From: Chitinophaga polysaccharea
GTDB lineage: Bacteria; Bacteroidota; Bacteroidia; Chitinophagales; Chitinophagaceae
Length of the DNA: 64,000 bases
Direction of reading: 5' to 3'
NCBI RefSeq assembly: GCF_007829335.1
Contig: NZ_VIWO01000001.1
Coordinates: 1,302,001 to 1,366,000, forward strand
Shown here: piece by piece, positions 21,713-36,282 of the stretch
How the letters are laid out: every line of letters begins with the position of its first letter
Position numbering within the stretch: position 1 is the first letter of the stretch
Translations under genes and position numbers: made by a program
The notes under the pieces: generated by a model
Databases searched by the model: none
What the model saw: the letters and a program-made list of their open reading frames with translations, nothing else
Told to the model about the DNA's origin: nothing

Positions 21713-22150
21713 ATGAAAAAGCGGGAAATTGCCAACACTGAAGATATTATGGAACTGGTAAATAGTTTCTATGATAAAGTAAAGGCAGATGATGTGATCG
21801 GGTTTATTTTTAACGATGTAGCAAAAGTGGACTGGTCGCGCCATTTGCCGGTTATGTACGATTTCTGGGGGAGCTTGTTGCTGGGAAGTGGGAGCTATGG
21901 CCGTAATGTAATGGATCCGCATTTTAAACTGAATAAGCTGATTCCCCTGGAACCAGTATTCTTTGAGCGTTGGCTGCAATTGTTTGAGGCCACCGTTAAC
22001 GAACGTTTTACGGGAGAAAAGGCTACCCAGGCCATTTCCCGTGCCAGGTCCATTAAAGGCATTATGTCTTTTAAAATGGACCAGATCAATCACCCGGAAA
22101 AGGGGACCGATAAAAATATCCCACTGGTTAACCCGGGGCATCAACAATAA
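21713..22150 (+). CDS. Group III truncated hemoglobin
   Basis: A heme-binding 2-over-2 globin of 145 residues. The group III pattern is visible: an N-terminal IMELVNSFYDKVKADDVIGFIF helix, WSRHLPVMYDFWGSLLLG, then the proximal His in DPHFKL and the closing FFERWLQLFEATVNERFTG. The start at 21713 (MKKREIANTED) is preferred over an upstream in-frame ATG at 21659 that overlaps the previous gene. Such globins are linked to peroxide or nitric-oxide handling in microaerobic conditions. It is followed by rarA after 14 bases. Confidence 0.92.
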   Translation: MKKREIANTEDIMELVNSFYDKVKADDVIGFIFNDVAKVDWSRHLPVMYDFWGSLLLGSGSYGRNVMDPHFKLNKLIPLEPVFFERWLQLFEATVNERFTGEKATQAISRARSIKGIMSFKMDQINHPEKGTDKNIPLVNPGHQQ

Positions 22151-22164
22151 TATAATCCATTTGT

Positions 22165-23421
22165 ATGCAACCATTAGCGGAGCGTTTAAGGCCGGTAACA
22201 TTGGATGAACTGGTTGGGCAGGAGCATCTTACCGGCAAGGATAGTATTTTAAGAAAAGCCATAGAAAAGGGCATGATTCCCTCCATGATTTTATGGGGGC
22301 CTCCCGGCGTTGGTAAAACTACCATTGCCAACATTATTGCGCATACGTTGCAGGTGCCGTTTTATACATTGAGCGCTATTTCGGCCGGCGTAAAGGAAGT
22401 GCGGGAGGTGATAGAAATGGCGAGAAGACAGCGGCACGCTGTATTATTCATCGATGAAATTCACCGCTTCAATAAATCACAGCAGGATGCGCTTTTAGGA
22501 GCTGTCGAAAAGGGGATTATCACCCTGATAGGCGCTACTACGGAAAACCCTTCCTTTGAAGTAAATGCGGCGGTATTGTCGCGCAGCCAGGTGTATGTAT
22601 TGAAGCCGCTGGGCAAGGAGCAGCTCATGCAGCTGTTGCAACAGGCCATGGAAAGAGACGAGTGGCTGCGCAGCAAGAAAATTGAATTAAAAGAAACCAG
22701 TGCACTGTTTAATATCTCCGGTGGAGATGCCCGGAAATTACTCAATCTCTTTGAGCTGGTGGTGACCACTTTACAGGAAGAGCCTATCGTGATCACCGAT
22801 CAGAAAGTAATGGATATTGCCCAGCAACGGGTAGCTATTTATGATAAGAGCGGCGAACAGCACTACGATATTATTTCAGCCTTTATTAAATCGATCCGTG
22901 GCAGCGATCCCAATGCGGCAGTGTATTGGCTGGCCAGGATGATTGAGGGAGGAGAAGATGTGAAATTTATTGCCCGCCGGCTGGTGATACTAGCATCGGA
23001 AGATATTGGCAATGCCAATCCCAATGCTTTGCTGCTGGCCACTAACTGTTTCCAGGCTGTGAATATGATCGGTTACCCTGAGTCCCGTATTATCTTATCA
23101 CAATGTGTTACTTATCTGGCGGCATCTGCCAAAAGTAATGCGTCCTATATGGCCATCAATAAAGCCCAGTCGGCGGTATCCAATACCGGCGATCTGCCTG
23201 TGCCAATGCATATCAGGAACGCCCCTACGAAATTGATGAAGGATATGGGCTATAGTCAGGGATACGCCTATGCACACGATTTTGAGAAAAATTTCGTGGA
23301 GCAGGAATTCCTGCCGGATGCATTAAAGGGAACGAAGTTTTACGACCCGGGGAACAACCCGCGGGAAGATGAGCTGCGCCGTTACCTAAAGGCGTTGTGG
23401 AAAGAAAAATATAATTATTAG
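22165..23421 (+). CDS. rarA: Replication-associated recombination protein A (AAA+ ATPase)
   Basis: RarA/MgsA clamp-loader-like ATPase acting at stalled replication forks (418 residues, full length). Walker A is GPPGVGKTT (near residue 47), Walker B DEIHRFNKSQQDALL (near 95), sensor 1 IGATTENPSFE and sensor 2 GGDARKLLN. The C-terminal tetramerisation region contains GSDPNAAVYWLARMIEGGED and DIGNANP. It ends one base from the convergent pbpC stop with no visible terminator between them. Confidence 0.96.
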   Translation: MQPLAERLRPVTLDELVGQEHLTGKDSILRKAIEKGMIPSMILWGPPGVGKTTIANIIAHTLQVPFYTLSAISAGVKEVREVIEMARRQRHAVLFIDEIHRFNKSQQDALLGAVEKGIITLIGATTENPSFEVNAAVLSRSQVYVLKPLGKEQLMQLLQQAMERDEWLRSKKIELKETSALFNISGGDARKLLNLFELVVTTLQEEPIVITDQKVMDIAQQRVAIYDKSGEQHYDIISAFIKSIRGSDPNAAVYWLARMIEGGEDVKFIARRLVILASEDIGNANPNALLLATNCFQAVNMIGYPESRIILSQCVTYLAASAKSNASYMAINKAQSAVSNTGDLPVPMHIRNAPTKLMKDMGYSQGYAYAHDFEKNFVEQEFLPDALKGTKFYDPGNNPREDELRRYLKALWKEKYNY

Positions 23422-23422
23422 C

Positions 23423-25819
23423 TTATTCCCTTTCCTTAGCAAGTATCTCAAATACTTGCTCAATCCTTTCCCCATTTTCATCTACCAGCGTAATGGTATG
23501 CTTGCCGGCAGCCGGATGCAGCGCCATTTGGTGAAACTCTGTGGTAGTACCGATAAAATGATCGTCGAGGTGCCAGAATATTTTAACGGCGGTATTACGG
23601 TGGGTGGCGGTGAAAATTGTTTGCCCCGGCTTGCCATCAATTTCAACGGGAACGAATATACGAGCGCCCGGCTTGGGGTAAATCAATTCCATAGGTGCTT
23701 TATCCTGTCCTAACGACGCGAGGCAGTCTGGCTTGTAAGGGGGGAGTGGCTGGTAATAATTTTTGCTGCGATAATAATATTCCTGCGAAGGAGGTAATAC
23801 AAACCACGATTTATGCTGCATTAACTGTGGCGATTCACAGGCTTCGGTAACCCGCCATTGACCGGTTCTGTCGAGGTGAATTAACTGGTGATACGGACAT
23901 ACTCCGGACCGTATGCCTGCAACGGGCACATAGATGGTATCTTTTTCATCGCATAGTTCGCTGGCGCGGTAGCCGCTTTTGCGGCAAACTTCCACTTTGG
24001 TCAGTTGAGCATAGGGCGTATTAAACCAGCCGCTGGTGTGCAGGAGGCGGAATACGTCGAACAGGATGGGAGCGGCCGTAGCCACGCCGATCAGGCCAGG
24101 TCGTCCTTCGCCATCGGCATTGCCCACCCATACACCGACTACATATTGCGGGGTTACGCCAATGGCCCATCCATCCCTGAAGCCGAAGCTGGTGCCTGTT
24201 TTCCAGGCAATACGCTGGGAGGAGGAAAACTGTTGCCACAGCAGTTCTTCACCGGGACGCATTACTTCTGTCATTGCCTGGAAGGCGTACCAGATGGAAC
24301 CGGCGTCGAGCAGCCCGTTTTTACTGAGGCCATTATGCGATGGACGTTGAATATTGAGTAGGTAGTTAGGTGGATGTATATCATCCATATCATATTTTCC
24401 TTTGTATTGCTCCATATGGAGGAGCGTGCGGGCCATGCTGGCATACATCCCACACATTTCCCAGAGGGTGGTTTCGCCACCTCCGAGGATCAGGGATAAG
24501 CCGTAGTGGTCGGCCGGTTTATTGAGTGTGGTAATACCTATTTTCTGCAGCAGGGCATGAAATCTTTCGTACCGGTATTGTTGCAGCATGCGCACCGCCG
24601 GGATGTTGAGCGACCGTGCCAGTGCGCGGGAGGCAGGAACGGCGCCATCGTAGCCCAGGTCGAAGTTCTGCGGAGAGTAGCCGGCAATCTGCGTAGGAAT
24701 GTCCGGGATCAGGGTGTGCGGCAGTATCAGGCCGTCGTTGAGCATAGCGGCGTATAATACGGGTTTCAGAGTACTACCGGGACTTCTTCTTGCCTGGATA
24801 ATATCCACATGACTTTCCAACTCAGCGTTGGAGGGCTGATAAATATTTCCTACATAAGCGAGGGTATTGCCTGTTTCTACATCCAGCACCAGTACGGCGG
24901 CATTGTTGATGCCATTGGCTTTATAAGCGTTATGATATCGTTCGGCGATGGCAGTGGTATTTCGTTGAAGATCGGCTACCACCGTGGTTTTAATGCGGGT
25001 GGGGGCATCTGATTTTTGTTGTTGGTAATCGCGGCGGAAGAGATCCAGCAGGTGTGGAGCATCTTGTGGAAGTGGTAATGGCTGATCCGGTAAGGGTTCC
25101 AGCTTGGCCAGCTGGCAGGTAATGCTATCGATGCTGTGCTGGCGGTGAAGTTTGTCGAGCAGCTGGTTACGTTTGCTGAGCAGGATGGCCCTGTTGCGGC
25201 CTGGGTGTACGAGCGCGGGACTGTTGGGTAAAACAGCCAGGGCGGCCATTTCTCCCCAGGATAATAAATCTGCTTTACGCCCATAATAACGCCAGGCAGC
25301 GGCTTCCAGGCCTACTACGTTTCCGCCGAAAGGGGCATTGGCGGCGTATAGCGCGATAATTTTATTTTTTGAAGCGGCAAATTCCAGGCGGGTGGCCAGT
25401 ATGGCTTCCACCATTTTTTGCCAAATATTACGGGGCTGATTGCGGGAGAGACGAATTACCTGCATGGTGAGGGTACTACCGCCGCTCACTACTTTTTTGC
25501 CGCGGATATTCTGACTGATAGCGCGACTAATAGCAAGCGGATCTACTCCCCAATGATAATAGAAGCGTTTGTCTTCATAGGCCACAATACACTTTTTGAA
25601 TTTTTCCGGCACATGTGCATTATAGGGAAACCGCCATTGCCCATCTGGTGCAATGCTGGCGTTCAGCAGATCGCCGTTGCTGTCTTCCAGCACATAAGAA
25701 GTGGCGGTGGTAAAAAGCTGCCGGGGTAAACAGCAATAATAGGCAATGAGCAGTACAGCGGCTGCGCTGAGCCACCATTTCTTTTTTATGCACCATTGCC
25801 GGAGTGTATGTAGCTTCAT
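23423..25819 (-). CDS. pbpC: Penicillin-binding protein 1C
   Basis: Bifunctional class A PBP of 798 residues. After a short cytoplasmic tail and one transmembrane helix (about 15-32) comes the glycosyltransferase domain, with EDKRFYYHWGVDP (catalytic Glu near residue 80) and GGSTLTMQV. The transpeptidase domain follows with SPGSTLKP (near 346) and KTGTSFGFRDGW (near 537), and the C-terminus carries the PBP1C-type domain. The ATG at 25819 (MKLHTLRQW) is chosen because the 85 in-frame residues upstream lack membrane logic and cross the divergent regulatory region. PBP1C genes often neighbour alpha-2-macroglobulin genes, as here. Confidence 0.93.
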   Translation of the reverse strand: MKLHTLRQWCIKKKWWLSAAAVLLIAYYCCLPRQLFTTATSYVLEDSNGDLLNASIAPDGQWRFPYNAHVPEKFKKCIVAYEDKRFYYHWGVDPLAISRAISQNIRGKKVVSGGSTLTMQVIRLSRNQPRNIWQKMVEAILATRLEFAASKNKIIALYAANAPFGGNVVGLEAAAWRYYGRKADLLSWGEMAALAVLPNSPALVHPGRNRAILLSKRNQLLDKLHRQHSIDSITCQLAKLEPLPDQPLPLPQDAPHLLDLFRRDYQQQKSDAPTRIKTTVVADLQRNTTAIAERYHNAYKANGINNAAVLVLDVETGNTLAYVGNIYQPSNAELESHVDIIQARRSPGSTLKPVLYAAMLNDGLILPHTLIPDIPTQIAGYSPQNFDLGYDGAVPASRALARSLNIPAVRMLQQYRYERFHALLQKIGITTLNKPADHYGLSLILGGGETTLWEMCGMYASMARTLLHMEQYKGKYDMDDIHPPNYLLNIQRPSHNGLSKNGLLDAGSIWYAFQAMTEVMRPGEELLWQQFSSSQRIAWKTGTSFGFRDGWAIGVTPQYVVGVWVGNADGEGRPGLIGVATAAPILFDVFRLLHTSGWFNTPYAQLTKVEVCRKSGYRASELCDEKDTIYVPVAGIRSGVCPYHQLIHLDRTGQWRVTEACESPQLMQHKSWFVLPPSQEYYYRSKNYYQPLPPYKPDCLASLGQDKAPMELIYPKPGARIFVPVEIDGKPGQTIFTATHRNTAVKIFWHLDDHFIGTTTEFHQMALHPAAGKHTITLVDENGERIEQVFEILAKERE

Positions 25820-25927
25820 CAGGGTGTTCTGGGTCAAATAAGTATTGTGCGCCCAAAGATAATGTTTTGGGCAGTTACCGTGACGGAGATATGACCACTC
25901 ATATATACTTCTCCTTAAAAAAATATA

Positions 25928-25948
25928 TTTTGTACTAATTGGTAAAAT
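25928..25948. promoter_or_regulatory. Upstream copy of the GTACTA operator-like site
   Basis: TTTTGTACTAATTGGTAAAA keeps the left half (TTTTGTACTA) of the perfect palindrome 107 bases downstream, but has a degenerate right half. It lies in the divergent pbpC/hydrolase region and may be a second, weaker binding site for the same regulator. Confidence 0.35.
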
Positions 25949-25998
25949 ATATACCTTCACTCGAGTAAAGCGTGAAATGATGGGGTGAAAATGATACC

Positions 25999-26024
25999 GG
26001 GCAAGTGCTAGCTGCCCTTTTTTT
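25999..26024 (+). terminator. Small hairpin with T-run in the hydrolase leader
   Basis: GGGCA (25999-26003) pairs with TGCCC (26013-26017) around a 9-base loop and is followed by seven T. It lies 41 bases before the hydrolase ATG, so it could act as an attenuator. The stem is short. Confidence 0.35.
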
Positions 26025-26034
26025 AAAATCATTA

Positions 26035-26052
26035 TTGTACTAAATAGTACAA
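26035..26052. promoter_or_regulatory. Perfect palindromic operator before the alpha/beta hydrolase
   Basis: TTGTACTA-AA-TAGTACAA is an 8+2+8 perfect palindrome ending 12 bases before the ATG at 26065. The GTACTA/TAGTAC halves resemble operators bound by HxlR/YodB-type redox-sensing repressors (established for that family). No regulator gene is adjacent, so the assignment is inferred. Confidence 0.55.
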
Positions 26053-26064
26053 AATAAAAAAGAT

Positions 26065-26940
26065 ATGAAAGCAACTGTTTCTTCTTCTATCCTGCACAAG
26101 AAAGTGCGTGTTCGCGAACTGGATATTTTTTACCGCGAAGCGGGACCTGCACAGGCGCCAGTAATTTTATTGCTGCATGGTTTCCCTAATACCTCTCATA
26201 TGTACCGGGACCTGATCCGCGACCTGGCGGGAAATTATCGTGTGATAGCGCCGGATTACCCGGGCTTTGGGCTTAGCAGCCGGCCGCCGGTGAGTGCATT
26301 TGCGTATACCTTTGATCACCTGGCCGACATCATGGAAGCATTTATCGATACGCTGGGACTTACACACTTCGCCTGGTATATGCAGGACTACGGCGGGCCG
26401 ATAGGATTTCGTATTATCAGCCGTCGTCCTGAGCTGGTCAAAGCACTGGTGATCCAGAATGCCAACATATACGAAGATGGTCTGGGACCTGGCGTGCAGG
26501 AGATTGGGGCGCTGCAGCAGGTGGGCGATGAGCAGGCGCTGCATACCGCTATCGTTAATAAGTTATCCCTGGAGTATATAAAAAATGAGCATCTTTTTGG
26601 CGCCGCCAACCCGGAAACCGTGAGTCCCGATAGTTATGAACTGGCGGCTTTTTATATGAGCAGACCAGGTATGGAGGAAATCCAGGTAACGTTATTTCAT
26701 AACTATGGCACCAATTTTCCGTTGTATCCGGTATGGCAGCAATATCTGCGTACTTATCAGCCACCGTTGCTGGTGGTATGGGGTAAGAACGACCAGATCT
26801 TTACCTGGCCCGGAGCCATTGCCTATCAGCGCGATGTGCCAGCTGCAAAGGTACATCTCCTGGATGGTAGTCATTTTATGTTGGAAGAATACCATGAGCA
26901 GGTGGCTTCACTGATGAGCGATTTTATGGAGAAGATATAA
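26065..26940 (+). CDS. Alpha/beta hydrolase with Asp nucleophile (haloalkane dehalogenase/epoxide hydrolase-like)
   Basis: A 291-residue alpha/beta hydrolase. LHGFPNTSHMY carries the oxyanion-hole HG motif. The nucleophile elbow MQDYGGP places Asp at residue 108 rather than Ser, as in haloalkane dehalogenases and epoxide hydrolases. The acid is Asp243 (WGKNDQIF) and the base His270 (GSHFMLEEY). No signal peptide, so cytoplasmic. An operator-like palindrome directly upstream suggests induction by a reactive or xenobiotic compound. It sits between pbpC and the alpha-2-macroglobulin gene on the opposite strand, which looks like an insertion. The substrate is not decided by sequence. Confidence 0.85.
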   Translation: MKATVSSSILHKKVRVRELDIFYREAGPAQAPVILLLHGFPNTSHMYRDLIRDLAGNYRVIAPDYPGFGLSSRPPVSAFAYTFDHLADIMEAFIDTLGLTHFAWYMQDYGGPIGFRIISRRPELVKALVIQNANIYEDGLGPGVQEIGALQQVGDEQALHTAIVNKLSLEYIKNEHLFGAANPETVSPDSYELAAFYMSRPGMEEIQVTLFHNYGTNFPLYPVWQQYLRTYQPPLLVVWGKNDQIFTWPGAIAYQRDVPAAKVHLLDGSHFMLEEYHEQVASLMSDFMEKI

Positions 26941-26942
26941 AA

Positions 26943-27180
26943 GGTAGGAATCCTTATAAAAACCGTAAAATTGAGACATTTACTGGTGGTAAGGATGAAC
27001 AGAGTACAGCTACAAACCATACCCGCACGGGTTATTATTGCGGCAAGCTGGTAGAATGGCTTCCGTTATGAGCGTTTCAACGTAGAAGATCGCCTGTGGC
27101 GCAACGCGATGTATGTGATTCCTATTTCGGTGGATGAAACTTTACGTAATGTGAACCTGGTACAAAACGCCGGTTGGTAA
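26943..27180 (+). pseudogene. Relic of a SusD/RagB-type outer-membrane lipoprotein gene
   Basis: Two joined fragments in different frames. The first (26949-27068) reads NPYKNRKIETFTGGKDEQST then ATNHTRTGYYCGKLVEW, like the central TGYYxRKfv segment of SusD proteins, and hits a TGA at 27069. The second (27061-27180) reads RLWRNAMYVIPISVDETLRN then VNLVQNAGW and stop, matching the SusD C-terminus (xMYLxPIPxxExxxNPNLxQNPGW). The long segment that normally separates these parts is deleted. It starts directly after the hydrolase stop and its own stop codon sits in the following terminator arm. No complete susD remains. Confidence 0.75.
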
Positions 27181-27224
27181 AAAAAAGGGGTGTTTCTTAT
27201 ACAGAAACACCCCTTTTTTTTACC
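27176..27224. terminator. Strong bidirectional terminator
   Basis: Arms 27176-27196 and 27204-27224 pair perfectly over 21 bp around the loop TTATACA, with eight A on one side and eight T on the other. It contains the last bases of the SusD relic and lies 10 bases past the stop of the - strand alpha-2-macroglobulin gene, so it now ends that transcript. Confidence 0.92.
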
Positions 27225-27234
27225 AATCCCTTTT

Positions 27235-30200
27235 TTATTTTACTACTTCTATCCATTTACCTGGCAGGAAAGCATGTATGGTATTGTCATACATGGCTTC
27301 ACAGGAAGTGGCCGGCAGGTAATAGCGGCCCAGGTAAGCGGCATTGAGCAGTACATTGTAAGTACGTTTCTTGTTTTCTTCGATATTGAAATAAGTATAT
27401 ACCCTGTCGTCACGTATATCCATATACGTAGATGGCGAAGAATGAAATGCACTGTCGTTTTCCATTAAGCGGGTATTCAATATTTCCCATCCGGAAGGGA
27501 AGATTTGCGACAGGGCCATTTGCTCATAATAGCCTCGTTTCCCGGGGTTGGTGATGGTAACAGTGGCCATGAAATCGCTGCCCTGGCGTAGTGTGGATGG
27601 ATCCAGCGGTTTGCCATCGCGGGTACTGTAGCTCACCTGCATGCCCAATATATCAGGATTGTTGGTGGCCACCGGCTCCTGGCCTGCATCTGGTTGGCCC
27701 TGGAGGATCAGCCGCACGTACAGCACATTTTGCCCGTTGTTCTGGATGCTTACATTACCAGCAGCACCATTGAAGGTAACCGGTACCTGTGTAACAAACG
27801 ACTGACCATTCACATTGCCTTTCGCCCCATTGAGCGTATAGCTGAAATTCATCTTGCTACCGCCTTTATTATTACCACAATATTTAGCTACCGCAATCAG
27901 TGCGTAAGCAGTTGTTTGGGTGCTGTACCATTGGTCGTTTTGCGACAAATGAGCGGCAATTTGTTTTACCATATCATTGGCCGTATTACGTTGACCAAGG
28001 ATGGTGAGTGTTTCCAATATCATGGCTTTATCGCGCAGGTCGGAACCGAAAGTGCCTCCCAGTTGCTGGTAAGGTTTCACTTCGGTGCTCAGGCCGCGTA
28101 CAAGTGATTGCGCCACTTCCGGTTGGCCAGCCAGTTTATAAGCTGCTGCGAGTCGCCATTTAGCGGGAGCCGACAGATATTTGAATTCTTTGAGCCTGTT
28201 CATGGCGCCTAATTCCGGCGATTTAGCCAATGCCAGTAAATACAGGCGATACGACTGTGTAAGGTCGCCACCATAGAAATTGAGCGTGCTTGGGGCCCAG
28301 GTACCGGCTTTATTCCGTTGGTATTTCTTCCATTGGTCCAGTAGTCCCTGAGGAAGGGTGTAGCCTTGTGCCTGTGCTTCTATAAGGAAATGACCGCCAT
28401 AGTTGGTGCCCCACTCATCGGAGTTGCCTTCGCCCGGCCAGTAGCTGAAGCCGCCATCTGAAGCCTGGAAGCTTTTCAGGCGGTTAATGCCGGCCTTCAC
28501 ATTCCGGTCTATTTCCGCCAACTGGCTTTCTTTCAGGTCCATCAGCTGATTGAGCACGAGCTGAGGGAATACTCCGGAGGTAGTTTGTTCAATACAGCCA
28601 TGTGGATATCCTATCAGGAATTGTAAGCGCTTGCCAAGATTCAGTGATGGAATGGTAGATACTTCCAGCACGCCGGAGTTGGTGCCTGCCATGCCTACCG
28701 GGCTGAATGCTGATTGCCAGCTCTTATTGCCTTCCAGTGTATTTTCAATGATGTTGGTAATAACCGGGTTAGGATTGCGAACATTCAGTTCTACATTTTC
28801 TTCTGCCCTTTCGGCGCCGCTGGCAGCTACCACTTTTATTTTAGCTACGCCGGTGAGTGGTTTTACTTTTACATCAAAATAAACAATCTGTTCTCCTGGT
28901 CGAGAGAAGGTGACGGTTTTAGTATGTTCGCCTACTATTTCCAGCAGCGGGCTGGTGCTCAGGGTTACGCTGGCGTTGCGGATATTGGGCTCCAGGCCAA
29001 ATACGGTTACCGGCAGTTGTATAGTTTCCGACGGGCCCAGTACGCGGGGAGCAGTGGTGAGCAGCATCAGCGGTTTTTTCACCGCTACTGTTTTTTCTGC
29101 GGCGCCATAAGCGCCATCCTGTCCGGCTACCACCATGGCTTTTACCGAACCGATGTAAGGAGGTAGTTTGAATTTATGGGTTTGTTTCTGTCCTGATTTC
29201 AGGTAGAAGGGCCCCATATATTTTACTACCGGTTTAAAGCGGTTGGCTTTGGCGCTGCCAGCATTTTTATTGAGTCCTTCGTCACCGCCGATACTGAGTA
29301 TACGGTCCATATCTGCGCCCCAGGCGCCAATCACGTAGTCGAACAGGTCCCATGTTTTTACACCTAATGCTTCCCTGGCATAGAAGGAGCTATGTGGGTC
29401 AGGTGTTTTAAAGCGGGTAAGATCGAGCAGCCCTTCATCTACAATGGCGATGGTGTAGGTCATGGCCTTACCATTACTTTCGCTGACGCTGATGCTGGCT
29501 TCTGTTTCCGGTTTGAGTTTATCCGGCATACTGATCACCGGTTTCAGTATGGTGCCGGGATCTTCCACGGAAATAGGAATAGTCCCATACATACGGATAG
29601 GTAAGTCGTTGAGCGTTTGTGCGTGTGGTTGCAGCAAACTAACGTTCACGTATATATTTGGCGTCATATTCTTCTCCGCCTTGAATTTAAACGTGGTCTG
29701 TCCTTGTTTGGTGGTGATCCAGTAGGATTTCAGCACTTTGCTGCCGGATTCTATGCTGATCAGTCCCCGTCCGCCCTCGCTGCTGGGGATGGTGAGGTTA
29801 ATATCTTCACCGGTTTTATAGTTTTGTTTATCGGAGGTGAATACCAGCATAGAAGCCTCTGCCGGGTTCTCTTTCTGCATTCTTTCTGCCCATCCCGGCC
29901 AGTCGATATACACTGCTTTACCGGCAGTATGGCCGCTTTGCAGGTCCTTTACCCTTACCAGGTATCTGCCCCAGTCGGGCGAGTTAACCCGAAGGTCCCA
30001 TTTACCTTTACCATTCTGAAGGGTAACGGTTTCTTTGCTCAGCAGCTGGTTATAGTTATCCTGGGTAAAGTTGGAGAAGTCTTCCTGTTCACCTTCATCC
30101 CACCACCATCTCCATTTTATTTTGTAGAGTTCTACCTGTACTTCGCGGCTGCCGCTCGTCAGGTTACCGTTGCCATCTACATCTACCAGTTCAATTGTAT

Positions 30201-32823
30201 GCGGACGGTCGGTGAGCAACATACCGGTAGTGCGGTCGCCTGCTGGCATGCGCAGTCCAGCGTAGGAAGTATATGGGTTATAAGGCATGGAGAAGTGATC
30301 AATACTGAAATCGCCCCCGGGTTCAAATACTTTTACTTCGAAGTTCGCCTTCAGCTGGCCGGGGGGCAGTTTGCCCAATTGTATATCTGCGTTTACCGGT
30401 GCGCTGCCGTTGTCGTTCAGTGCGCCTTCAAAGATGGTTTTATTTTCCGCGCCGAAGCGGTTTACCGGATCGTCGAAAGAATAGTCTGCAAAGTTTTTAA
30501 AGCTGGTGGTTTGTTCGGTGAGCGATACATCTACCTTTGCTTTCAGGTGCTGTGCAGTAGCGCCAAAGAGCCACATGGCCGACAAGGTGCCGGTGGCGCC
30601 GGTCTTGGAGAGGGCGGTCTGGCTGCCGAAATCCATTTTTATTTTCAGCCGGTTCGGTTTCACGGTTTCCACGCGTACATTCTTCTGGAAGGTAGCACCA
30701 CCCACTTTTACTTTAGCGACCCAGCTGCCGGTAGGATCGTCGGGACCCGTAGCTGTAGCAAAGCTATAGAACCCGTTGAGCCCCTGGTGTTGGTTGATGC
30801 GTTTATAGAGTTGTCCTTTCGGATTGTACAACTCCATGGTAACGGGATGGTCTGCCGGGAGTTTCTGTCCTTTATCTTCCAGTATAAAGGTGAGATAAAT
30901 AGAATCGCCGGGGCGCCATACGCCGCGTTCACCGTACAGGAAGCCTTTGATACCGTTTTGCACCTCTTCTCCTTTTACGTCGAAGCGGCTTAATGGCAGG
31001 GAGCTTCCGTCGTCGAGTTTGAGGTAACCTCTTTCATGGTCTTTCTTAGCGATGAGGAGGTAGGGTTTACGTTTCAGCTCAAAAGAGGCGAGGCCTTCCC
31101 CATCACTCTTGGTTTTGAATATCACCTGGTTTTGATAGTCGAGCAATTCCAGGTCAACGCCTATCATCGGTTTGGTATCGCGTATATCGGTTACGGCTAC
31201 CAGCATGCTGTTATCATTACCTCTTTTGGCGATGAGGCCAATGTTGGAAGCAATGATATTGCGGGATGCCCATTTGTCTTTGCTGTAGTAAGAATTAGAG
31301 CAGGCATCGTTGCGGCGGTCCCAGTTATAACCGTAGGGATAGTAGCTATCGTAGCGTTGCCAGAAGGAGTCGTCGTCATCAATTTTTTCGCCGCCGCCGT
31401 AGTATTCCTCCTCCCCTTCTTCATCTGAGTAGCCGTTGTTATCGCTGTCTTTGGTGGTGTCGGCAGAGCAGGCGGTCATGGCGTATGATTTACGGAAGCC
31501 GATGGTGATGCGGTAAATTGCACCTGGCTCGGTGCGCAGCATTTTGTCGAGGTCGAGGAAGAAGCGGTTCTTCTTGTGCAGGTTAAGTGACTTATCCACA
31601 TCGAGACGGATAGTTTTTTCCACTACGGGCTTGCCTACACGGCGCAGTTCCTGGCTGCCGTCGAGATCATTGCGTTGGAGATATTGCGGTACGTTGTTTT
31701 CATAGATTTTGATAATGGAAACGTCTACCGCATTGAGGTTTACGGCTTCAAAGGGCATTACCAGCTTGTTGCTTTCCGGGAGGATCACGCCTTTGCCGGG
31801 AATGCTAACAGAAGGCAATGTATTTTCAAAATTCACATTGGCGCTGAATGTGTGGCCTAGTCGTTTATCCGTGATGTTGAGCACGCCTTCGTTAACGATC
31901 ACGTTGTAGTTGCCTTCTAGTCTTACGGGGGCGTACACGCTTACTTCGCTGCCATCGATGGTGTAACGAAGATCGCTCTGGCCGGAGATACCGATTAATC
32001 CTTCCAGGGTTTGCGCTACACTGATAGGGTCGGAGAACTGCACCAGCAGGTGTTGTTCCGGGTCGGAAAGGGCTTTAACCGCCAATACTTTAAAGTCGCC
32101 TACAGCAGGTACTTCTATGGTCGTTTTGCCTTCATTGTTTACCTTGAGCGGGGCGCCATTCCAATGGAGCTCCAGGTTGCGGCTAATATTACCGCGTGCA
32201 ATATTGGCGATGGTAAAACGGGAGGTGCGCTCGGTAGCATTATGTTGCCAGGTAACAGGTAAACTTTTCCCGGCGTATTGTGCACTGAGTATTTTTTCGA
32301 TGGTTTGGGGATCTTCCACATCGGCAGTATAAATAGCGCCGGTGAGGCTCATTTGATCGAGTGTATTGTTGGTACTGGCTTTCAGTCCGAAGTTTTCAAC
32401 AGAGAAAGCAGGTTTGATAATTTTAAATTCAAAGTCGAATGATTTAAGTTCTTTGGGGACTTCCAGTATTTTGCCCAATTTAAAGGTTGCCTGGTAGGTT
32501 TTACCGGGTTGCAGGTTTTCATCTGGCCTGAATTCAATGGTAGTGGCATCTATCCAATAGGACTTACCTTTGATGGAGGGAGAAAATTCGAAGATTTCCT
32601 TCTCCAGTGGTTCGTTCTGGGTGTGGGTAATATTGGTTTGGCCTGTAAGGTGAATGCGGATGGCACTTTGTTTGGAAATGATACCGGCCGTATATGCCTC
32701 GATATACCTGGCAAATTCGGGATTCATTTCTTTACGTGTGCTCCGGCAACCACTGACAATGGACAGGATAGCCATGAAAAAGAGCAATGCCGCTACAACA
32801 GGGAGCCGTTTGATTGGGTGCAT
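27235..32823 (-). CDS. Bacterial alpha-2-macroglobulin family lipoprotein
   Basis: A very large (1862 residues) envelope protein thought to trap incoming proteases in the periplasm. The N-terminal signal ends SIVSGC with a lipidated Cys26. A series of macroglobulin beta-domains follows, including a typical MG-type segment RGVWRPGDSIYLTFIL. The thioester motif is CIEQ in YPHGCIEQTTSG (near residue 1410), with the alpha-helical thioester domain after it (DGGFSYWPGE, GTNYGGHFLIEAQ). An acidic, Tyr-rich insert (about 465-520) is unusual in composition. It is upstream of pbpC on the same strand, the known functional pairing, but the hydrolase and SusD relic now separate the two. Confidence 0.92.
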   Translation of the reverse strand: MHPIKRLPVVAALLFFMAILSIVSGCRSTRKEMNPEFARYIEAYTAGIISKQSAIRIHLTGQTNITHTQNEPLEKEIFEFSPSIKGKSYWIDATTIEFRPDENLQPGKTYQATFKLGKILEVPKELKSFDFEFKIIKPAFSVENFGLKASTNNTLDQMSLTGAIYTADVEDPQTIEKILSAQYAGKSLPVTWQHNATERTSRFTIANIARGNISRNLELHWNGAPLKVNNEGKTTIEVPAVGDFKVLAVKALSDPEQHLLVQFSDPISVAQTLEGLIGISGQSDLRYTIDGSEVSVYAPVRLEGNYNVIVNEGVLNITDKRLGHTFSANVNFENTLPSVSIPGKGVILPESNKLVMPFEAVNLNAVDVSIIKIYENNVPQYLQRNDLDGSQELRRVGKPVVEKTIRLDVDKSLNLHKKNRFFLDLDKMLRTEPGAIYRITIGFRKSYAMTACSADTTKDSDNNGYSDEEGEEEYYGGGEKIDDDDSFWQRYDSYYPYGYNWDRRNDACSNSYYSKDKWASRNIIASNIGLIAKRGNDNSMLVAVTDIRDTKPMIGVDLELLDYQNQVIFKTKSDGEGLASFELKRKPYLLIAKKDHERGYLKLDDGSSLPLSRFDVKGEEVQNGIKGFLYGERGVWRPGDSIYLTFILEDKGQKLPADHPVTMELYNPKGQLYKRINQHQGLNGFYSFATATGPDDPTGSWVAKVKVGGATFQKNVRVETVKPNRLKIKMDFGSQTALSKTGATGTLSAMWLFGATAQHLKAKVDVSLTEQTTSFKNFADYSFDDPVNRFGAENKTIFEGALNDNGSAPVNADIQLGKLPPGQLKANFEVKVFEPGGDFSIDHFSMPYNPYTSYAGLRMPAGDRTTGMLLTDRPHTIELVDVDGNGNLTSGSREVQVELYKIKWRWWWDEGEQEDFSNFTQDNYNQLLSKETVTLQNGKGKWDLRVNSPDWGRYLVRVKDLQSGHTAGKAVYIDWPGWAERMQKENPAEASMLVFTSDKQNYKTGEDINLTIPSSEGGRGLISIESGSKVLKSYWITTKQGQTTFKFKAEKNMTPNIYVNVSLLQPHAQTLNDLPIRMYGTIPISVEDPGTILKPVISMPDKLKPETEASISVSESNGKAMTYTIAIVDEGLLDLTRFKTPDPHSSFYAREALGVKTWDLFDYVIGAWGADMDRILSIGGDEGLNKNAGSAKANRFKPVVKYMGPFYLKSGQKQTHKFKLPPYIGSVKAMVVAGQDGAYGAAEKTVAVKKPLMLLTTAPRVLGPSETIQLPVTVFGLEPNIRNASVTLSTSPLLEIVGEHTKTVTFSRPGEQIVYFDVKVKPLTGVAKIKVVAASGAERAEENVELNVRNPNPVITNIIENTLEGNKSWQSAFSPVGMAGTNSGVLEVSTIPSLNLGKRLQFLIGYPHGCIEQTTSGVFPQLVLNQLMDLKESQLAEIDRNVKAGINRLKSFQASDGGFSYWPGEGNSDEWGTNYGGHFLIEAQAQGYTLPQGLLDQWKKYQRNKAGTWAPSTLNFYGGDLTQSYRLYLLALAKSPELGAMNRLKEFKYLSAPAKWRLAAAYKLAGQPEVAQSLVRGLSTEVKPYQQLGGTFGSDLRDKAMILETLTILGQRNTANDMVKQIAAHLSQNDQWYSTQTTAYALIAVAKYCGNNKGGSKMNFSYTLNGAKGNVNGQSFVTQVPVTFNGAAGNVSIQNNGQNVLYVRLILQGQPDAGQEPVATNNPDILGMQVSYSTRDGKPLDPSTLRQGSDFMATVTITNPGKRGYYEQMALSQIFPSGWEILNTRLMENDSAFHSSPSTYMDIRDDRVYTYFNIEENKKRTYNVLLNAAYLGRYYLPATSCEAMYDNTIHAFLPGKWIEVVK

Positions 32824-32886
32824 CAGTAAGGAGAATTAGGGTGATTAACTGGTGCGAATGTCGGGAAAATTCTTTAGAAAGCGGAA

Positions 32887-32909
32887 AGCAGAAAGCTATG
32901 CTTTCTGCT
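32887..32909. repeat. Palindrome overlapping the 3' end of the ModF-like gene
   Basis: AGCAGAAAGC (32887-32896) and GCTTTCTGCT (32900-32909) pair perfectly around TAT. The right arm encodes the C-terminal residues of the ATPase and its stop codon lies in the centre. The arm unit AGCAGAAAGC is the same as in the hairpin after fabF. Confidence 0.65.
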
Positions 32910-34416
32910 CCCCTTTCTCCAGCCGGATATATTTATCCACACAGGCCGGTAGTTCTTCTTCATAGTGGGTAACGTAGATGAGGGTTACGGCCATATGATC
33001 ACAGAGTTGTTCTATTACTTTTTTGAAGTGCATTTTTTGTTGGGCGTCCAATCCCTGGCAAGGTTCATCGAAGATGAGCAGGGGCGGATTTTTTACCAGC
33101 GCCCGGGCCAGCAGTGTTAATCGCTGGGCGCTTTCGGATACCTGTTTAAATGGTGTTTTTTCGTGTTCCGAAATATTGAGTACACTCATCCATTCGCGGG
33201 CTATCTGTACCTGCTCCGGTGTAGCGGGACGGGTACTGCCGATTACATCGGTAAAGCCCGAGCAAATTACCTGCAGACAGTTGTCGCGGGAAGTAAAATA
33301 CTGGTGCAGTTCCGGGGATACGAAGCCTATTTTTTTCTTTATATCCCAGATACTTTCTCCTGAGCCGCGTTTACGGTCGAAGAGCCATAGTTTATTAGCG
33401 TATGCCTGAGGATTATCCCCATTTACGAGACTCAGCAATGTAGATTTTCCTGCGCCGTTGGGGCCCAACAGGGCCCATTTCTCGTTAGGTTTCACTACCC
33501 AGTTGATACCGTTGAGGATTGTATTTTCACCATATTTGATATGGATGTTTTCCATCCTCACGATGGTGTCGAAGGTAGCTTGCGGACTATTTTGTACCAG
33601 CGCATTTATTTTATCCGCCGCTATGGGCGGAAGTTGTATTTCCCCGATAGCCGGTAATGGCAGTTGTACAAATTCCTGGCGTGTATACTTGCCTGTTATA
33701 CTCCCATTATCGAGGGTAAGTACATGGGTAATATGTTCCGGGATTTCATGGGGAGAAGTAGCCAATACCACAGTAGTGCCACCTACGATGATTTCATTGA
33801 TCATCGCGCTGAAGTCTTTGCGTGCCTGTACATCCAGTCCTATATAGGGATTGTCGAGCATCAGCAAGGGTGGCTGTTGCAGCAAAGCTTTGGCAATCAT
33901 TACCCGGCGGGTTTCGCCATTAGATAATTTGATCAATCTTTTTTCCATCAGCGGCGCTATGCGCAGGGAATTGATCAGTGGCGGAATCGCCGTAATTTCC
34001 AGGTATTCCATCACTGTGGGCGAATTATCGGCATCCATACTGTTGAAGCGCTGCTGATAGTAGAAGTCGGTGGTGGTATTGGAAAGATTGCGGAAAGTAT
34101 GATGATGTCCTACCATCGCTATCAGGTTGCGATAATTAAACCAGGGATCAGTGATGGTATGCTCCCGGCACCAGTTGTCATAGAAATGGTAATGAATGCT
34201 ACCATTTATTACATTGAATTTACCGAGAATGGTATTCAACAAAGCTGTTTTGCCGGAGCCACTCGGGCCGGTGATGGCCCACTGTTCACCTTTGCTGATT
34301 TGCCAGTTGAGGGTATTGAATAATGTTTTGTCGAGGTATCTGACGGTGATATGTTCCAGGGAGAGGAACGGCGTTTGTTGGTGTGTCATGATTGTACGAT
34401 TGGGCTCAATATTCAT
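32896..34416 (-). CDS. ModF-like twin ABC ATPase
   Basis: A 506-residue protein with two fused ABC nucleotide-binding domains and no membrane domain, closest to ModF: the second half contains LLSLVNGDNPQAYANKLWLF and RGSGESIWDIKKKIGFVS. Domain 1 has Walker A GPSGSGKT (50-57) and signature LSNGE, but its Walker B reads LLMLDNP with Asn189 in place of the catalytic Glu. Domain 2 has Walker A GPNGAGKST and intact LLIFDEP, with a degenerate signature (VSESAQ). Alternative start MTHQQ at 34389. E. coli ModF lies in the molybdate operon, but no molybdate genes are here. Its C-terminus is encoded by a palindromic repeat. Confidence 0.85.
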   Translation of the reverse strand: MNIEPNRTIMTHQQTPFLSLEHITVRYLDKTLFNTLNWQISKGEQWAITGPSGSGKTALLNTILGKFNVINGSIHYHFYDNWCREHTITDPWFNYRNLIAMVGHHHTFRNLSNTTTDFYYQQRFNSMDADNSPTVMEYLEITAIPPLINSLRIAPLMEKRLIKLSNGETRRVMIAKALLQQPPLLMLDNPYIGLDVQARKDFSAMINEIIVGGTTVVLATSPHEIPEHITHVLTLDNGSITGKYTRQEFVQLPLPAIGEIQLPPIAADKINALVQNSPQATFDTIVRMENIHIKYGENTILNGINWVVKPNEKWALLGPNGAGKSTLLSLVNGDNPQAYANKLWLFDRKRGSGESIWDIKKKIGFVSPELHQYFTSRDNCLQVICSGFTDVIGSTRPATPEQVQIAREWMSVLNISEHEKTPFKQVSESAQRLTLLARALVKNPPLLIFDEPCQGLDAQQKMHFKKVIEQLCDHMAVTLIYVTHYEEELPACVDKYIRLEKGEQKA

Positions 34417-34480
34417 CTATCGGGTATAAAATTAACAGGATTATTGAAAGCATCTGATATTTTTATACGAAATTGAGGTT

Positions 34481-34945
34481 ATGAACTGGAAGATAAAATC
34501 CTTTGAGGAGCTTAGTACAACAGAGCTCTACGCTATTTTGCGTTTGAGGAGCGAGGTGTTTGTAGTGGAGCAAAATTGTGCTTACCAAGACCTGGATAAT
34601 ACCGACCAGCTGGCGCTGCACCTGATGGGTACTGATGATACCGGCCGGCTGCTGGCCTATACGCGGCTTTTTCAGCCGGGCATCAAGTACCAGGAAGCTT
34701 CTATTGGCAGGGTGATTACCTCTCCGCTGGCGAGGGGCACAGGTGCTGGCCGGGAGCTGATGGAGCGGTCGATCGCCGCGGTGCAGCAGCAATTTGGTAC
34801 CGTACCTATCAAGATCGGTGCTCAGCAATACCTGCAACGTTTTTATACTTCACTGGGCTTTGAACAAACCAGCGATACTTACCTGGAAGATGGTATTCCT
34901 CACATCGAGATGGTGAGGAGCGCCCACGGCACCCATACCGTATAA
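34481..34945 (+). CDS. elaA: GNAT acetyltransferase, ElaA family
   Basis: A 154-residue GNAT-fold protein of the ElaA group. The N-terminus MNWKIKSFEELSTTELYAIL, LRSEVFVVEQNCAYQDLDNTD and the acetyl-CoA loop IGRVITSPLARGTGAGRELM are characteristic; the tail has the usual FYTSLGFEQTSDTYLEDGIPHIEM. The substrate of ElaA proteins is unknown. It is a monocistronic + strand gene flanked by - strand genes and closed by a strong hairpin. Confidence 0.92.
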   Translation: MNWKIKSFEELSTTELYAILRLRSEVFVVEQNCAYQDLDNTDQLALHLMGTDDTGRLLAYTRLFQPGIKYQEASIGRVITSPLARGTGAGRELMERSIAAVQQQFGTVPIKIGAQQYLQRFYTSLGFEQTSDTYLEDGIPHIEMVRSAHGTHTV

Positions 34946-34951
34946 TGCCGG

Positions 34952-34993
34952 CGGGGGAAACTGGTACGGATATCTCCACACCGGTTTCCCCCG
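34952..34993. terminator. Bidirectional terminator between elaA and DUF6048
   Basis: CGGGGGAAACTGGT (34952-34965) pairs with ACCGGTTTCCCCCG (34980-34993) with one G-T wobble, then a TTATTTATTT tract. It serves elaA (+, ends 34945) and the - strand gene ending at 35019. Confidence 0.8.
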
Positions 34994-35018
34994 ATTATTT
35001 ATTTCTCTCCCGAAAAAT

Positions 35019-35843
35019 TTACCGCTTCGGTATTTTCTTTTGTTTTACTTCCACTTTAGGTGCATGTTCCTTTAACCTGTAGAAAGGTATGACGTAGGAA
35101 ATGGTGTACTGCACATCAAATACTGCCCTTTTGGAGCCGCTGCCAAAGCCGGGAATTACCAGGGGCGCTATTTCATCTGTTTTTACGCTATTGATCAGGA
35201 TACGTTCACGTATATTCCAGCCCATAAAGAAATTTTTCAGCACTTCAGCTTTCAGGCCTACCAGCAATTCCACCCAATGCGCGTTGACATTGGTTTTAGG
35301 TACGCTGCCACTCAGGTGGTCGCCCCAATAGGGACTGTTAATCGAATACGTAGGTACGGAATAGTTGAAATGTGAAAACCCATAGCGGATGCCGCCGTAG
35401 AAGATATTCTTTTCAGTAGGGTATTGTCTTTTCAGGAAATTATAATCTACTCCTAATGTTACGAACATACCATTTCCTTTATAGGTATAGGTAGAATCGC
35501 TATAGGGCGTGTTGGCATATCCACCTTCAAAGGCTGCATACAGGTTGCTGTTGATGCGGGCATCGGCAACGATGGTCACTTCTTTTCTGTAAGGGTAATA
35601 GATAGCAGAAACAATACGGCTAAGATCCACGCCTATCCGCAGGCCGCCCGGAATATACCAGGAGCTGTCTTTAAGCGGTATGGCCATTTTTTTAGCAGTA
35701 TCCACCGCTGCTTTGTGGGTGGTATCTGCCAGGATGGCCTTATGGATGGTATCCCGTTTAGCGGCTGCCGGTTGCTGGGCCGATACAGCGAGGCTGAAGA
35801 GGATACTACTGATTAAAGAAAAATAAAGTAAGATGCGTGTCAT
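35019..35843 (-). CDS. DUF6048 family protein (predicted outer-membrane beta-barrel)
   Basis: A 274-residue exported protein with a signal peptide ending VSAQ. After a charged, Ala/Lys-rich linker the rest alternates aromatic strand segments (GLRIGVDLSRIVSAIYYPYRKEV, LYAAFEGGYANTPYS, FFMGWNIRERILIN). It closes with VQYTISYVIPFYRLKEHAPK, like a small outer-membrane beta-barrel. This matches the Bacteroidota DUF6048 family, which is usually found beside DUF6452, as here. Its start lies inside the 3' end of that gene (38-base overlap in another frame), so the two are translationally linked. Function is unknown. Confidence 0.75.
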   Translation of the reverse strand: MTRILLYFSLISSILFSLAVSAQQPAAAKRDTIHKAILADTTHKAAVDTAKKMAIPLKDSSWYIPGGLRIGVDLSRIVSAIYYPYRKEVTIVADARINSNLYAAFEGGYANTPYSDSTYTYKGNGMFVTLGVDYNFLKRQYPTEKNIFYGGIRYGFSHFNYSVPTYSINSPYWGDHLSGSVPKTNVNAHWVELLVGLKAEVLKNFFMGWNIRERILINSVKTDEIAPLVIPGFGSGSKRAVFDVQYTISYVIPFYRLKEHAPKVEVKQKKIPKR

Positions 35844-36282
35844 TACTGCTGATTACTGACTTATTATTAATCTGGAGATCGCTGATAGTATGCCGGGTAG
35901 CAATAACGGTATCCAGTGTGAAGTAGGTACCAAATCCGCAACCGGGAGATATAAAATGTTTTGTACGTGTATACCTGACGGTTATAGTGTCTGCTACCAG
36001 TGCGGAATCCACTTTCAGGTAATACTGGCTGCTGTCCGCTACCGGGGAAAGCTGGAAAAAGAGATTACCCAGCGGTTGCCTTTTGTAAATGCTGTCCTTG
36101 TTCAGGGCAAAAGCAGTTACTTTAGGCATGATGGTATCTCTCACGATTCCCTGGCTATCGCGGGAAAAGTGAATATGGAGACTGTTACTTAATGTCTGGT
36201 CACATACTTTTGTTTCATTTTCGCAGGCGATGAAGCCGGCGAAAATGAAACAAGTAAGTAGTATTTGGTAAATGCTTTTCAT
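35806..36282 (-). CDS. DUF6452 family lipoprotein
   Basis: A lipoprotein of about 158 residues with the signal MKSIYQILLTCFIFAGFIAC; an in-frame ATG at 36303 would add seven residues without signal character. The body is beta-rich, with family-like VCDQTLSNSLHIHFSR, a central LFFQLSPVADSSQYYL and VRYTRTKHFISPGCGFGTYF, whose conserved Cys-Gly-Phe is typical of DUF6452. It sits 25 bases downstream of uvrA and overlaps the DUF6048 gene. The pair may form an envelope module of unknown role. Confidence 0.72.
   Translation of the reverse strand: MKSIYQILLTCFIFAGFIACENETKVCDQTLSNSLHIHFSRDSQGIVRDTIMPKVTAFALNKDSIYKRQPLGNLFFQLSPVADSSQYYLKVDSALVADTITVRYTRTKHFISPGCGFGTYFTLDTVIATRHTISDLQINNKSVISSNDTHLTLFFFNQ

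Follow-up and report, generated by a model that had tools for sequence, protein, structure and literature searches.

A susD pseudogene remnant between a hydrolase gene and an alpha-2-macroglobulin gene of Chitinophaga polysaccharea

The window analysed here is a stretch of 64,000 nucleotides from the soil bacterium Chitinophaga polysaccharea (G000:C1:1302001-1366000). Between an alpha/beta-hydrolase gene and a convergent gene for a bacterial alpha-2-macroglobulin (A2M), it harbors two short pieces of susD followed by a long hairpin. SusC and SusD constitute a TonB-dependent outer-membrane uptake pair, with an ECF sigma factor and FecR as its sigma/anti-sigma regulator, and susD is a nutrient-uptake gene. 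The features of the locus are the following, with L035 denoting the sister reference, a stretch of the genome of Chitinophaga eiseniae Ak56 (G018):

23423-26074, strand opposite to the hydrolase gene: pbpC (TIGR02073, E = 1.6e-210), beyond the hydrolase gene
26065-26940, plus strand: alpha/beta-hydrolase gene, left neighbour of the remnant (291 aa; Pfam Abhydrolase_1, E = 7.5e-32; ortholog at 95% amino acid identity in G018)
26941-26957, plus strand: 3' flank of the hydrolase gene, 17 nt up to the first join (17 of 17 bases identical to L035 up to 4396)
26957/26958: join of deletion 1 (L035 4397-10942, 6,546 bp: ecf, fecR, susC and the first 379 susD codons; one shared T)
26958-27055, plus strand: susD remnant, piece 1 (98 nt, codons 380-412 of 567, frame of 26943; 88% identical to L035 10938-11040)
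27055/27056: join of deletion 2 (L035 11041-11384, 344 bp, frameshifting; no microhomology seen)
27056-27180, plus strand: susD remnant, piece 2 (125 nt, C-terminus, frame of 27061; 86% identical to the susD of G018; Pfam SusD_RagB, E = 0.0036)
27174-27226, no strand: inverted repeat, probable bidirectional intrinsic terminator (perfect over 24 bp, loop of 5 nt, A-tract/T-tract at the base of the stem)
27178-27180, plus strand: native susD stop codon TAA, terminating piece 2 within the left arm of the hairpin
27235-32823, minus strand: A2M gene, convergent right neighbour (1862 aa; Pfam bMG3, A2M_BRD, bMG6, A2M and others)

The original prediction placed the remnant between pbpC and the A2M gene and let it begin at 26943. 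The A2M gene is indeed its neighbour, but pbpC is not, the hydrolase gene (26065-26940) lying between them; likewise, the susD-derived DNA begins at 26958, whereas 26943-26957 belongs to the downstream flank of the hydrolase gene. The top NCBIfam models for the hydrolase are haloalkane dehalogenases, with scores below the model cut-offs. The listed pbpC frame has a TTG at 26074 as its first codon and overlaps the hydrolase start at 26065; because most relatives align over only about 770-810 of its 883 residues, the true start probably lies further inside this frame. pbpC was located at 56 of the A2M loci; at 40 of these it lies close to the A2M gene and on its strand, the aligned ends being separated by less than 1,000 bp. 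The other 16, all titled Chitinophaga, have a gap of 1.1 to 9.6 kb (measured between aligned ends, loci L036-L094), and this interval seems to be a place of repeated gene gain.

The remnant carries SusD pieces in two frames, as predicted: TGYYCGKLVEW is encoded in the frame of 26943 and FRYERFNVEDRLWRNAMYVIPISVDETLRNVNLVQNAGW plus a stop codon in the frame of 27061, the translation of the second piece reading FRYERF...MYVIPISVDETLRNVNLVQNAGW and then the stop. A SusD profile match was obtained for the C-terminal piece, which aligns weakly with the very end of Pfam SusD_RagB (profile positions 264-297 of 297, the last 34; E = 0.0036, 17.4 bits, below the gathering score of 23.1 bits), but not for piece 1, which has no Pfam match; neither piece matches an NCBIfam model. 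A functional SusD (PF07980) would be expected to reach the gathering score over the domain, and the remnant does not (17.4 versus 23.1 bits). Because these profile searches are too weak, the identity of the pieces was settled by DNA comparison with relatives. One intact susD of the sister genome, at the orthologous place, matches both halves, the first at 88% identity (E = 3.6e-31) and the second at 86% (E = 8.6e-38), with agreement in order, strand and neighbourhood, which bears out the earlier recognition of a SusD relic. What is retained amounts to 223 of 1,704 bp, or about 13%, and the reading frame is disabled, the start and 379 codons being absent and a frameshifting deletion separating the pieces. 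On the evidence of this comparison, 26958-27180 is a susD pseudogene remnant.

The intact state is preserved in relatives, where the original prediction had proposed to look for a complete susCD. Along L035, the genes follow one another as pbpC, hydrolase, ECF sigma factor (201 aa), FecR (335 aa), SusC-type TonB receptor (1143 aa), SusD (567 aa) and A2M, and all four operon proteins have Pfam support. Its intact susD spans L035:9806-11509 (families PF07980 and PF14322), and the two matching halves, at C21:1207437-1207539 and C21:1207884-1208013 of G018, lie about 6.6 kb downstream of the ortholog of the window hydrolase. An intact operon between hydrolase and A2M was found within the flank examined at two of 59 A2M loci, namely those of Ak56 (L036, NZ_JABAHZ010000002.1) and Chitinophaga sp. 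Ak27 (L045). These 59 loci come from named genomes, may omit the window's own, and have flanks of at most 10 kb, shorter in a few. The hydrolase is present at 70% identity or more at eight of them, and some other A2M loci have nearby SusC relatives that are only distant (26-30%).

Used as a DNA query, the remnant found matches in nine of 59 genomes, the window's own included. Both halves occur in G043, at 77% and 70%, within an intact susD that is 75% identical to that of G018. A wider DNA search of 79 Chitinophaga genomes (again including the window's own) gave 12 that match at E <= 1e-10: the window's own genome is the only one in which the halves are joined (1 of 79), they are 344 bp apart in Ak56 and in Ak27 (G088, whose stretch is an exact part of L045), and each of the other nine has one half only at that threshold. 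The susD of Ak56 and Ak27 is the same gene in the same place; of it, the window has parts of codons 380-412 and 527-567 together with the stop codon, while 87% of the gene is missing, as are the start and an uninterrupted frame. The ECF sigma / FecR / SusC / SusD type of uptake operon, known from Bacteroidota, is complete with its four genes at the sister locus and reduced to a scrap of susD in the window.

The joins can be read directly from the alignment of the two loci. Comparison of 22001-36000 of the window with L035 by blastn yielded collinear blocks at 22666-23420, 23421-26957 and 27056-34677, with 93-94% identity, and, lying between the second and the third block, a small piece at 26953-27055. 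At single-base resolution, the window matches the sister hydrolase flank up to 26957 and susD from 26958 on. The claim that the stretch between the two SusD pieces is deleted is confirmed by the 344 bp missing relative to the sister (L035 11041-11384), and since 344 is not a multiple of 3, the remnant is read in two frames. Because the remnant belongs to a gene that is intact in both relatives, the change is polarised as a loss. A relocated copy of the operon was looked for in the window's genome but did not turn up: with a 6,541-bp query of the lost DNA, the best of 15 matches was 44 bp at 91% (40 of 95 candidates scored), and the best SusD was 38% identical (23 of 126 candidates scored).

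The hairpin that follows the remnant consists of two arms (27174-27197 and 27203-27226) and the loop TATAC. Its perfect stem measures 24 bp instead of the 21 bp first given, and the susD stop codon is embedded in it as described (27178-27180, left arm). The predicted RNA fold has an energy of -40.9 kcal/mol, compared with an average of -17.45 for shuffled sequences (z -6.92), and none of 200 shuffles was as stable. This stable, G+C-containing hairpin has an A-tract on its 5' side and a T-tract on its 3' side, as expected of a bidirectional intrinsic terminator, and we infer that it would terminate transcription on both strands. A consensus terminator scan reported no site in window 26000-28000 and likewise left the homologous hairpin of the sister unreported, probably because the T-run lies within the stem, whereas the scan looks for one downstream of the stem and does not count beyond 20 pairs.

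Hairpins that are homologous to it but differ in some of their letters are found between the intact susD and the A2M gene in both Ak56 and Ak27; the hairpin therefore predates the loss of the operon. In Ak56, an A-to-G difference is paired with a T-to-C difference on the other arm, and there is an extra G-C pair; the outermost TTGG/CCAA pairs are perfect in the window only. The presence of the hairpin in both relatives is the ground for rejecting the idea that it became two-sided only after the operon was lost; the view that a susD terminator "now also" ends the A2M gene is not supported. Such evolution of a hairpin has a precedent in Bacillus cereus, where compensatory evolution and stronger conservation of bidirectional terminators between convergent genes have been described (PMC5381666). 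The two cases are alike in having a long hairpin between convergent genes, with pairing kept despite changed letters, but differ in that the window has lost one of the convergent genes and the hydrolase gene has taken its place.

As for the origin of the hairpin, its core GTGTTTC...GAAACAC has three occurrences in the 59 A2M loci (1,479,030 bases in all), in Ak56, Ak27 and L086, each time 28-32 nt behind the A2M gene; a slightly longer core pattern has one place in the window's genome, which is here. At L086, the core lies at the same distance behind A2M although no susD was detected at the locus. By contrast, it is absent behind all eight more distant intact susD genes (L096-L103; 87 nt read after the stop codon). 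The hairpin is thus more likely to belong to A2M than to susD, and it is probably the terminator of A2M in origin. The core at L086 could nevertheless be a chance resemblance; it is absent from L037-L040, L057 and L062, all of which are nearer relatives than L086. Elsewhere in Chitinophaga, 15 of the 16 other A2M ends that were read have a different hairpin or none, the exception being L086. More broadly, long hairpins, often perfect and varying from species to species, stand behind many A2M genes (18 loci: L036-L045, L053, L057, L062, L076, L080, L084, L086 and L094), those of L039 and L043 reaching about 30 or more pairs, as if the terminator behind A2M had often been replaced.

The age of the remnant can be approached through its substitutions. 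Over the large blocks, identity is 94.5% and 93.6% between the window and Ak56, 91.9-93.4% between the window and Ak27, and 92.9% and 93.9% between Ak56 and Ak27, so that the window looks slightly nearer to Ak56, and Ak27 slightly more distant. The remnant itself is nearer to Ak27 (90% and 93%) than to Ak56 (88% and 86%), and because flanks and remnant point to different nearest relatives, the branching order is not firmly established. Each change was assigned to whichever of the three sequences differed from the other two, a count that is independent of this order except that the window branch would be longer if the window were the outermost of the three. The window branch has 10 synonymous and 5 nonsynonymous changes, the Ak56 branch 12 and 1, and the Ak27 branch 3 and 1. 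Under neutrality, 11.7 of the 15 window-branch changes would be nonsynonymous, and 5 or fewer have a probability of P = 0.00025. On these 15 changes, the nonsynonymous/synonymous rate ratio of the window branch is 0.14, against 0.034 for intact susD (Ak56 versus Ak27) and far from 1, which is consistent with a recent loss. With 0.034 taken as the constrained state, and with the small numbers and simple model that this involves, a fraction of about 0.11 of the window branch is estimated to have passed without constraint (95% range 0.003-0.43). As the changes resemble those of a selected gene, the gene was alive for most of the branch and the remnant is young; its survival then needs no benefit as an explanation.

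This bears on the proposal that a useful terminator explains why the scrap was kept. On this view, selection for a terminator needed by the A2M gene, and now by the hydrolase gene, would have retained the remnant. The hairpin is very stable, complementarity of its stem has been maintained in the relatives despite changes of letters, the deletion does not extend into it, and the hairpin that belonged to the hydrolase gene was lost. We nonetheless regard this explanation as unlikely: such selection would protect 27174-27226 but not the preceding 216 nt of susD, it is unneeded for a remnant so young (11% of the window branch unconstrained, 95% range 0.3-43%), and the hairpin is replaceable in principle, given the differing or missing hairpins at the other Chitinophaga A2M ends. 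The hairpin likely acts as a terminator, but that role does not explain the persistence of the adjacent susD scrap.

The hydrolase hairpin in question is a terminator-like structure of the sister at L035 4410-4441, with 13 pairs followed by TATTTTTTCA, found by the consensus terminator scan. It is weak by itself, the scanned stretch of the sister having 5 terminator-like sites versus 9.5 expected by chance. It falls inside the deleted stretch, and with its removal the hydrolase transcript is predicted to run through the remnant, so that it probably ends now at the A2M-side hairpin. A further version is that, through the deletion, the bidirectional terminator of A2M came to serve the hydrolase gene as well, the scrap having become a 3' untranslated region of the hydrolase that is held by selection for proper transcript ends; we consider this doubtful.

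The remaining alternatives fare worse. It is very improbable that a misassembly brought stretches together at the junctions that are not adjacent in the genome: although the assembly is a draft in 21 contigs, the locus lies inside a contig of 1.99 Mb, joins with 1 bp of microhomology or none offer no visible repeat to misjoin, and no other part of it yielded the missing DNA (among the 40 of 95 candidates scored). That the window lineage never had the operon and imported susD fragments from a relative by recombination is extremely improbable: two separate fragments would have had to arrive in the correct order and orientation at the correct place, both directly abutting flanks that are collinear with the relatives, and deletion from a shared ancestral state is far simpler. 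Finally, the stretch almost certainly does not encode an unrelated small protein: it has short frames, such as one of 27 aa beginning with a TTG at 26971 and one of 23 aa beginning with an ATG at 27109, but the former is the shifted frame and the latter the end of the susD frame, the DNA matches the intact susD of relatives, and the sole Pfam match of the searched pieces is to SusD_RagB, with no NCBIfam match.

Operon loss by deletion thus remains the preferred reading. In the ancestor of the window genome, Ak56 and Ak27, an ecf / fecR-susC-susD operon stood between the hydrolase and A2M genes. On the window branch, deletions of 6,546 bp and 344 bp removed it, save for two pieces of susD that do not make up a gene any more, and the pre-existing hairpin between susD and A2M, just beyond the deletion, was retained. 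Deprived of its own terminator-like hairpin, the hydrolase transcript would run through the remnant to the A2M-side hairpin. We hold the loss by two deletions, with susD scraps and hairpin left behind, to be close to certain.

Among the papers listed on Chitinophaga SusD pseudogenes, on bidirectional terminators and on SusD remnants in polysaccharide utilization loci, none describes this locus in its title or the opening of its abstract, and a search on macroglobulin-pbpC neighbourhoods in Bacteroidetes found no paper. The locus is an ordinary pseudogene remnant produced by ordinary gene loss, but unusually well documented, and it leaves the general picture unchanged. It provides a clean and roughly datable case of the loss of a SusCD uptake system in Bacteroidota, in which the state before the loss is kept in two close relatives, the joins are readable to the base, and selection acted on the gene until late in the branch. 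It also illustrates how, through a deletion, a gene may come to use a terminator that belonged to its neighbour.
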